Shown here piece by piece: positions 37,621 to 43,337 of a DNA stretch of 64,000 nucleotides. The DNA comes from Axinella damicornis. Taxonomy: Eukaryota; Porifera; Demospongiae; Axinellida; Axinellidae. Made by a program: the position numbers and the translations under genes. The first letter of the stretch is position 1. Each line of letters starts with the position of its first letter. Below the pieces are notes generated by a model that was given only the letters and a program-made list of their open reading frames with translations, ran no database searches and was not told the origin of the DNA. The DNA is taken from the NCBI GenBank assembly GCA_963931865.1, contig OZ007514.1:1-64000 (forward strand), written 5' to 3'.

Positions 37621-40600
37621 ATGGCTCTGTTAATGCTCCCCACTAACACAGGGACTGATCACTGCAGCCTGCAGGAGGCGTTCCTCAACTACCGCAAAAA
37701 GAAACAAGTGAGGGACATGAGCTCGGGAGGAGTTCAACACTTGTTATCTTGAGGCTCAAATAGAATTGATGTATGTGCAAACACATCGAATTCTATGTAC
37801 TGGAAACAATGTGCTTGCACCATTGAATGAAATCATTCTAATAGTGCAATACAAAGGATGCCTAGGAGTAAGAGTCACTACAAACACTACTGTGATAACA
37901 GTTGTAATCTGTTGATATTGAACTGGTATTTATCACTATGGTTATTAGCTTATGTACTGTAGGCAAAGAGGAGTCCATGTATGGTATTATCACTCCAGAA
38001 TGAGCTACTGCAGAAGAGGTGTCAGCAGCAGACTGCTATGGCTGGTCGTTCAGACCCGACCAGGATGGCCATCTTGCGCAAGAAGTTCATAGACACAGCC
38101 AAGACGTATATTGGAGTACCATATGCCAGGAAATACCACCAGCCAGACTGTAAGCCGCTGGTTGCAGCACTCTAAGTTAGTTCACGAAACCTCCACTAAT
38201 GGGGATTGCTGGGTATCACTCTCCAACAGCTCCCACGTATCACTCCCCTCTCTTCCTGGACTGCTGTGGTCTGGTCCGCCAAATACTTAGGGACTTGAAG
38301 GAAGACTTTGGCTTCAACATTGGACCATGGAACCAGGCGTACCAGGTTAGCAGGAGACACACTGCCTGGCAGACCCAACCAGACATTATCATGTTTGTGA
38401 TATAATATACTATGTGCATTCCACATGCACACTGAGGATGGTTGATATTGTCAAGTGCTTTGGCTCATTTCTCTGTAGTTTGACACTCTTCCCAGTGCAC
38501 TTTCTGTGCCAAGTGACATGCAGCCAGGAGACCTGGTGTTCATTTCTGCTGTCTACTACAACCCTAAAGGTTGGCATAGTATAGCATGCTCACGGCAGCA
38601 GCGGAAACCATTGAGATGGTAAAACAATGATAACAAGAAGGCATTGCTCAACTGGATGTGTCATCAGATTGCTGAGGTAACTCCCCCTCCCCCCTCCCCC
38701 CCCCCCCCCCCCCCCCCCCCCCCCCCCCCCCCCACACACACACACACACACACACACACACACACACACACACACACACACACACACACACACACACACA
38801 CACACACACACACACACACACACACACACACACAGCCCGGCAGCAACGCCACCACATGGTACATGTGGAGATCTGGCTGGGAGAGGGGGAGAGAACGCTA
38901 GGAGCACGCTGGCAGAGGGGGAGGTAACAGTCCTGGCATCAATACAGCTTCACTTCATTTGCATCGATTGTGTCTGTTGTGTATTCCCCTGGCAGTGTCG
39001 AGATCCACGAGAGCTACCAGTTTGTGTCCAAGTCCTACCACCACATGCAGTACCACTTCCGATCCATTGACACATGGCTCACGGGCATCTGCCAGAGGTG
39101 ACCGATATTTCACTTTGTATATGCCTAACACTGTCATTTGAAATGTCTTTGGCTGCTGTTGTCTACACAGCTTTTGTCCTGAGCACCCTTGGCAGAAGCA
39201 CACGTTTCAGCCTGGCAGGTACTCTGTGTTTGCTCTGGAGGAGGCATCAGATCTGGACCAACAGGCAGAGGAAGAAGAGGAGGAGGAGGGAGGGTGTGGA
39301 GGGGAGGAACAGGAGGGAGGGTGTGGCGGGGAGGCCGGTGATGCAGTGGAGGTGCCGGTTGGTGGTGGGGCTGTGAAGCATGGTAGCCAATCACAGGGGG
39401 GAGCCAAAGGGTCCTCGCACAAGGCACAATGCACTTCACCTCCCAGTATTTCCACGGGCCCAAGATCACCCAAAAAGTCACTTCAACTGCGGCCATTGAA
39501 GTCGGTCCACAGTACCCGGACTAGTGCAGGGAGGGGGACCAGGACCTTCATCATCTGCGGAGGCAACGCTGCCCCACTGTAAGTCACACCATATGGACAC
39601 TACTCAGGCATTGCAGGGCATGCCTGGTTAGTCTGTGTACTGCACATGCCTGCAGAGTGGAGCGAGCAATGGTGGTGCGGGGGTGGGAGAAGCTGGAAGA
39701 CAAGAGCTCCTCAGCCTTTACACTCAAGTGGGTGGAGCTCAAACAGCACATCGACTACAAGAACTTCAGAGAAGGTCAGCAGAGACCACTGCACTGTTAG
39801 GGCAGAGCTGCATAGTAGGCTCCTGATGTATGAATGTTCTGTGCAAGCAGCTCCTGGTGTATGGGAGTGTTCTCTGAGGTAGCAGCTCCTAGCTGAGAGT
39901 GTTCTGAGGTAGCAGCTCCTGATGTATGAGAGTGTTCTGAGGTAGCAGCTGTCTTACTCCACCAGGTGAACAGCTGGTGAACCATTTTCCTAACGTCGAC
40001 TTACTCACCACCAAGATAGGATTGCTGGAGAGCCTCAGGGCTCATGAGAGACTGCACCAGATAGCACACAGGTGATTCATCACACCATCCTAGTCTCCGT
40101 CCCAGACCCAAGCGCAGGTTGCTTCCCTTCCTCACACGCAATACTGGAAGCGATCCGTGCTGGGATTGGATTGGGTCTGGGACTAACCACACATCTCTGC
40201 AGTATATCTAACACTCATGAGAATGCCTTCATAATGAAGGCAAGGGTGTCTGTATTTGGAGGGCTTCCACTGTATGTGTGATGCAGTGAATTTAAGTATG
40301 TGCTTCCATTCAGGCCTCAGCTGAGACTGGAGAGAGTACTGCCCCTAACCTACCGCATGGACGTCCCTGCTGAGAGAGAAGAGTTCTTCAGAAGTTACAC
40401 TGGTATATAGCTAGTGGACATGTGCAAGATGCCAGATTCAGCAGAATTGTCTGACCACCCTCACCCACACACTCTACAGACGGGGATTTGTGGATATGCA
40501 AACCCACAGGAGCAAACCAGGTATATTGACAGGACTTACGGCATGTCAACATTTAAATTGCCGTGTGCATTGCATGGCACGGTTTCATAGTTGGAACCTC

Positions 40601-43337: not shown

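Follow-up and report, generated by a model that had tools for sequence, protein, structure and literature searches.

Can a single animal protein both build amino-acid chains on tubulin and take them apart? This question is raised by a gene in a 64,000-nucleotide stretch of the sponge Axinella damicornis (contig OZ007514.1 of assembly GCA_963931865.1, positions 1 to 64,000), referred to here as the window. A sequence-only reading of the window had proposed that one gene, at 37621..43337 of the forward strand, joins an NlpC/P60-like hydrolase domain (the N-domain) to a full TTL domain of the tubulin ligase TTLL10, and that the product would be a candidate writer-eraser for tubulin glycylation or glutamylation. 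The N-domain is found here from a ciliate to reptiles, and its fusion to the ligase occurs in many animals and protists.

Seventeen coding exons on the forward strand join into one open frame of 715 amino acids plus a stop codon, with no internal stop, in agreement with the claim of a single fused gene. Exons 1 to 6 lie at 37621-37707, 37963-38149, 38230-38345, 38479-38569, 38836-38923, and 38996-39097; exons 7 to 12 at 39171-39578, 39656-39774, 39966-40071, 40314-40402, 40480-40520, and 40644-40753; and exons 13 to 17 at 40936-41155, 41456-41536, 41604-41720, 41839-41932, and 43246-43337. The borders were picked by eye, without complementary DNA (cDNA), using GT-AG sites, preservation of the frame, and fit to TTL and NlpC/P60 homology. 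GT-AG borders and fitting phase are thus partly present by construction, and the informative result is that all 17 exons can be joined into one frame.

The N-domain occupies approximately residues 66-232 (38071..39195, forward strand), as delimited by a borderline match to PF00877, the family alignment, and the fold of relatives. It had been assigned to the first five exons; the domain is indeed present, but it extends from exon 2 to exon 7. The motifs named for it are found at residues 101-107 (LDCCGLV), 146-151 (PGDLVF), and 167-174 (HMVHVEIW). The profile search suggested with the original claim recovers NlpC/P60 similarity: the first 223 amino acids alone match the Pfam profile NLPC_P60 (PF00877) with 23.0 bits at a cut-off of 23 bits (E 8.1e-5), and all of 12 diverse N-domains match it at E up to 1, the best at 7.9e-7. 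The N-domain of Branchiostoma, the only one of the 12 displayed in full, scores 21.8 bits, just below the cut-off. No match to the N-domain was obtained in NCBIfam. Predicted structures of relatives have a papain-like fold of the NlpC/P60 subtype, and in two of these models a helix begins at the cysteine and a strand carries the histidine. Membership of the N-domain in the NlpC/P60 kind is supported by the borderline profile match together with this predicted fold of relatives.

Relatives were collected with two N-domain queries, the A. damicornis protein and a protein of the ciliate Protocruzia adhaerens (taxid 223996), which found 200 and 243 proteins, respectively, at E up to 1e-3. The 120 matches listed for each query were merged, and the A. 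damicornis protein was added, for a set of 162 proteins. Sixteen positions are identical in all 162 proteins: Asp102, Cys103, Arg108, Asn126, Gln127, Tyr129, Asp132, Gly147, Asp148, Leu149, His170, Glu172, Arg185, Ser213, Trp217, and Gly220. Asp102 and Cys103 are encoded at 38259..38264 within LDCCGLV. Cys104 is present in 161 proteins and replaced by Trp in one, and because of this variation Cys103 is favoured as the predicted nucleophile. The predicted catalytic histidine is His170 (codon at 38862..38864, within HMVHVEIW), since the family histidine at this position aligns with the histidine of SHVGIY in 3npf. The histidine signature proposed earlier is therefore present with a refinement, in that His170 is the residue aligned to the catalytic one and His166 is nearly invariant too (160 of 162). 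Intron 4 ends in a poly-C run followed by 51 copies of CA (38690..38834, forward strand), outside the protein and adjoining the acceptor of exon 5; length variation in this tract could influence the splicing of exon 5, which carries His170.

The claim of a full TTL domain after the N-domain is borne out by a match to PF03133 at residues 401-694 (E 5.7e-52, Pfam) with intact core motifs. This domain lies at 39968..43271 of the forward strand, in exons 9 to 17, and is placed by PF03133, an alignment to mouse TTLL10, and the model of a relative from Oscarella, which matches TTLL6 and TTL. In the alignment to mouse TTLL10, 171 of 373 columns are identical (46%). The score to mouse TTLL10 is 337 bits (BLASTP), compared with at most 99.8 bits (phmmer, a different program) to the solved TTL-family proteins 5vlq, TTL, TTLL6, TTLL7, and TTLL11; 5vlq is presumably a TTLL3. 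By similarity, the ligase is probably of the TTLL10 type, and from this likeness to TTLL10, a polyglycylase in mouse and Xenopus, we infer a putative polyglycylase activity. Between the two domains, a linker and the beginning of the ligase region occupy 39196..39967 of the forward strand, within exons 7 to 9. Residues 233-310 of the Oscarella relative have a low predicted local distance difference test score (pLDDT). Acidic stretches of the linker are not conserved. The idea of the linker as an acidic mimic of the tubulin tail was rejected as not distinctive, since 36 of 110 linkers contain a 15-mer with at least 9 D/E residues, as do 29 of the 52 tails of proteins that have no TTL match.

A TTL match accompanies the N-domain in 110 of the 162 proteins, always with the N-domain first. 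It covers at least 230 positions in 98 of the 110 and fewer than 150 in nine, some of them on short contigs. Among the matches listed, the fusion is held by sponges, corals, Nematostella, echinoderms, Ptychodera, Lingula, and some molluscs, and on the vertebrate side by lampreys, a shark, Latimeria, axolotl, caecilians, turtles, a crocodile, and squamates. Numerous further holders are unnamed proteins, often located on short contigs. The listed sponge relatives (Dysidea, Oscarella) are annotated as TTLL10-like, and some members are already named "NlpC/P60 domain-containing protein" in databases. The architecture survey thus confirms the fusion in relatives and shows it to be old and widespread rather than peculiar to this genome. 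Five relatives from transcriptome sets (P0033, P0080, P0086, P0091, and P0270) hold both domains in one open reading frame, with TTL matches of 298-315 positions, so that the predicted joint transcription stands in these relatives. It is hardly credible that the gene is an artefact of prediction in which two neighbouring genes were joined. Such an error would be compatible with borders drawn by eye without cDNA of this species and with the 52 relatives listed without TTL; however, fitting splice sites are available for every junction, and 110 relatives hold both domains in one order. For the family as a whole, the split-gene explanation was rejected on account of these fused relatives, including the transcriptome-set reading frames.

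The 52 proteins without a TTL match (solo proteins) include, among those listed, Branchiostoma, Adineta, Rotaria, and most named bivalves. On the N-domain tree, which was built with FastTree and has many weak forks, the solo proteins cluster (17 changes, compared with approximately 44 in shuffles; 0 of 500 shuffles as low) and lie mostly among fused ones. This pattern is most simply read as an old fusion followed by repeated separation, or as isoforms. Solo proteins may be isoforms in part; P0031, without TTL, and P0033, with TTL, carry names of one transcript component. The model of the Branchiostoma solo protein (P0001) ends in a predicted helix at residues 459-477, possibly a membrane or binding helix.

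Trees of the two domains, compared for 98 of the 110 fused proteins, agree with r 0.80 (0 of 1000 permutations as high), as is expected if both domains were inherited together. Within 30 fused proteins chosen by hand (29 relatives and the A. damicornis protein), mean pairwise identity is 63.7% for the N-domain and 50.2% for the ligase, and the N-domain is the more identical of the two in 417 of 435 pairs. The nearest proteins by path on the N-domain tree are P0010 (Em0008g1009a, which we take to be Ephydatia), P0004, and Dysidea avara, and the highest N-domain identity to A. damicornis is that of Branchiostoma (72%). A recent bacterial or viral origin was also considered and rejected. Bacterial and archaeal genomes, scanned by pattern, returned 24 hits and viral contigs 41, none of them a relative; two short patterns were used in each scan, which may miss near records, and distant kin may still exist.

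No NlpC/P60-like domain is present in any of 120 TTLL10 proteins listed of 499 found, in a search confined to proteins of approximately 226-718 amino acids, a range that shuts out long fused vertebrate forms. The mouse and X. tropicalis TTLL10 proteins that were fetched are without it, in which they differ from the A. damicornis protein. Reptiles are also among the 120. Naja naja is listed both ways, with the domain (P0107, 1048 amino acids) and without it (P0150, 705 amino acids), so that loss cannot be concluded from a short model. Mammals, birds, and frogs are absent from the named rows of the N-domain matches listed (120 of 200 and 120 of 243). Loss of the domain in these three groups is likely, though not proved.

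What the N-domain does is approached here through known enzymes. It resembles the NlpC/P60 peptidases (PF00877, MEROPS C40), among them dipeptidyl-peptidase VI (3npf), RipA, MepS, and Trichomonas NlpC1, in profile, in its Asp-Cys and His motifs, and in the fold of relatives. It differs from them in being eukaryotic and fused to a ligase and in the glycine seen, by eye, at the place of the third catalytic residue, and we know of no cell-wall substrate in animals. Bacterial NlpC/P60 peptidases cleave an amide of the glutamate gamma-carboxyl, and 2evr is titled a putative gamma-D-glutamyl-L-diamino acid endopeptidase. The glycyl branch on tubulin is likewise an amide of a glutamate gamma-carboxyl (PMC5666887; this and the other papers cited are drawn on in excerpt), and on this shared bond we rank first an amidase acting on the product of its partner ligase, either as a deglycylase or as an editor of chain length. 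That this is the role of the N-domain has, in our judgement, not quite an even chance. The narrower proposal, that it is the long-sought tubulin deglycylase residing inside a polyglycylase, so that one polypeptide would write and erase ciliary glycine chains, is held more tentatively.

In such a two-headed TTLL10, the TTL ligase would elongate glycine chains on tubulin, and perhaps on other proteins, and the cysteine amidase at the N-terminus would be tethered to it by the flexible linker. By a papain-like mechanism, Cys103, where the core helix begins, would be activated by His170 and would attack the amide carbonyl; a thioester would form at Cys103, and water would then release the product. 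The bond cut would be either that at the gamma-glutamyl-glycine branch point or the Gly-Gly bonds along the chain, and the N-domain would thereby set or reset chain length.

There is a precedent for a ligase and an amidase in one chain. Glutathionylspermidine and trypanothione synthetases are of the ATP-grasp type, like TTL. The E. coli glutathionylspermidine synthetase/amidase (GspSA) has an N-terminal cysteine amidase and a C-terminal ligase and makes and breaks the same amide (PMC6272389), and the trypanosome trypanothione synthetase-amidase divides synthesis and hydrolysis between two domains (PMC2784880). Both differ from the A. damicornis protein in having a CHAP amidase, another ligase family, and a small-molecule substrate. 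By analogy, the protein may work like a GspSA-type bifunctional enzyme, a functional hypothesis only, and it is not classed as a member by sequence.

Several points weigh against chain editing. The PF00877 score is borderline, falling below the cut-off in the whole protein (20.5 bits). The catalytic triad appears not to be canonical, since Gly183 (160 of 162) seems to occupy the usual third place (His, Asn, Gln, or Glu), as judged by eye and without coordinates. In enzymes of the NlpC/P60 kind, the next strand supplies a polar residue to orient the histidine; this residue is a second His in 3npf and 2k1g (Spr) (PMC10318531). Invariant Glu172, two residues past His170, could by a guess replace it, and since papain-like enzymes include examples of dyads and of a relocated third residue (PMC10318531), the gap at Gly183 does not by itself imply an inactive enzyme. 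RipD is, by its structure title, a non-catalytic NlpC/P60 fold. The solo proteins and the 120 TTLL10 proteins without the domain make ligase and hydrolase separable, so that the substrate need not be shared, and chain length may be limited by TTLL10 itself, with no need of an eraser (PMC12340829).

The N-domain could instead act as an amidase or peptidase on ciliary proteins or the tails of tubulin, leave glycine chains alone and, for example, remove glutamate branches or trim the C-terminus for TTLL10. The same fold and residues would serve this role, and TTLL10 is recruited by glutamylation (PMC12340829). The vasohibin detyrosinases are papain-like cysteine peptidases that already act on tubulin (PMC10318531), although they belong to another family (PF14822), are separate proteins, and remove tyrosine. 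Deglutamylases of other families are known, which lessens the need for one here, and nothing singles out glutamate; this role is considered unlikely. A lower probability is given to action on a small molecule that supplies the ligase, by freeing glycine from a peptide beside it or by acyl transfer. Glycine is, as general knowledge has it, not scarce in cells, and the listed solo N-domains carry the same residues, whereas papain-like relatives do include transferases and a family that removes glycine from glutathione (PMC10318531). Equally improbable is a non-catalytic module that guides the ligase by recognising tails that are glycylated or glutamylated. The glycine at the third place and the example of RipD would suit such a module; however, Cys103 and His170 are invariant also in proteins listed without a ligase, and binding modules in general seldom keep a nucleophile so strictly.

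What is established is the gene model, the fusion together with its wide occurrence, the predicted fold of relatives, and the conservation of residues; for catalysis, substrate, and biological role, a writer-eraser of glycine chains is the best inference. Of the idea as first proposed, an NlpC/P60 kind of domain fused to a ligase probably of the TTLL10 type stands, and hydrolase activity on glycylated or glutamylated tubulin would be its putative function. A glycine-removing tubulin enzyme is treated as unknown in the available parts of papers up to 2026 (PMC12838686, 2026; PMC11244163, 2024; PMC5666887; PMC7692294; PMC8307023), and the excerpts of PMC6609395, PMC3925317, and PMC12144771 contain nothing on one. 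The Xenopus tropicalis TTLL10 purified by Cummings et al. comprised residues 105-570. The fusion was not familiar to the sequence-only reading as a standard description of TTLL10, and no paper was found that joins NlpC (or NlpC P60) with TTLL10, TTLL, or tubulin glycylation, or with ATP-grasp and "tubulin tyrosine ligase", in a search that left subscription literature mostly uncovered.

If chain editing by the N-domain is true, the eraser of a main ciliary modification would be found and the setting of chain length explained, and retention of only the writer in mammals, birds, and frogs would explain why the deglycylase was missed. The candidate is deeply conserved, is fused to a relative of the glycine-adding enzyme, and has a predicted nucleophile to mutate. 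With a different substrate, it would still be an enzyme-like domain for which no description was found, present from a ciliate to reptiles and absent in the listed mouse and Xenopus TTLL10.

Within the A. damicornis genome, all seven significant matches to the N-domain fall inside this gene; paralogues were rejected, as the sole match elsewhere has E 0.67. A PF00877 search of the genome gave one match below the cut-off (E 0.83) and missed this gene too, and hence is no evidence of absence. TTL-family matches number 30 by exon, with large open frames at C6:7912754, C9:10063230, C4:20429228, and C6:1604072, and the animal has several TTLL genes.

With its 64 kb, the window covers the start of contig C10 in the 226-Mb genome and opens with 2,031 bases of CTAACC repeat, a telomere by appearance. 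Within positions 1-4600, 338 perfect CTAACC copies give way to 80 copies of a 32-bp unit, and the start of the window is apparently the end of a chromosome. An imperfect array rich in GCATCCCGGGATGGCGATCGAT, with a period of 22/44, lies at 5373-8179. Approximately 74 copies of a 24-bp unit (ACAACACAGCAACAGAGTGAGGGG) at 58288-60087 are open in several frames on both strands; the 640-codon stop-free stretch on the reverse strand of this array could encode a repeat protein or could have arisen by chance from the repetition.
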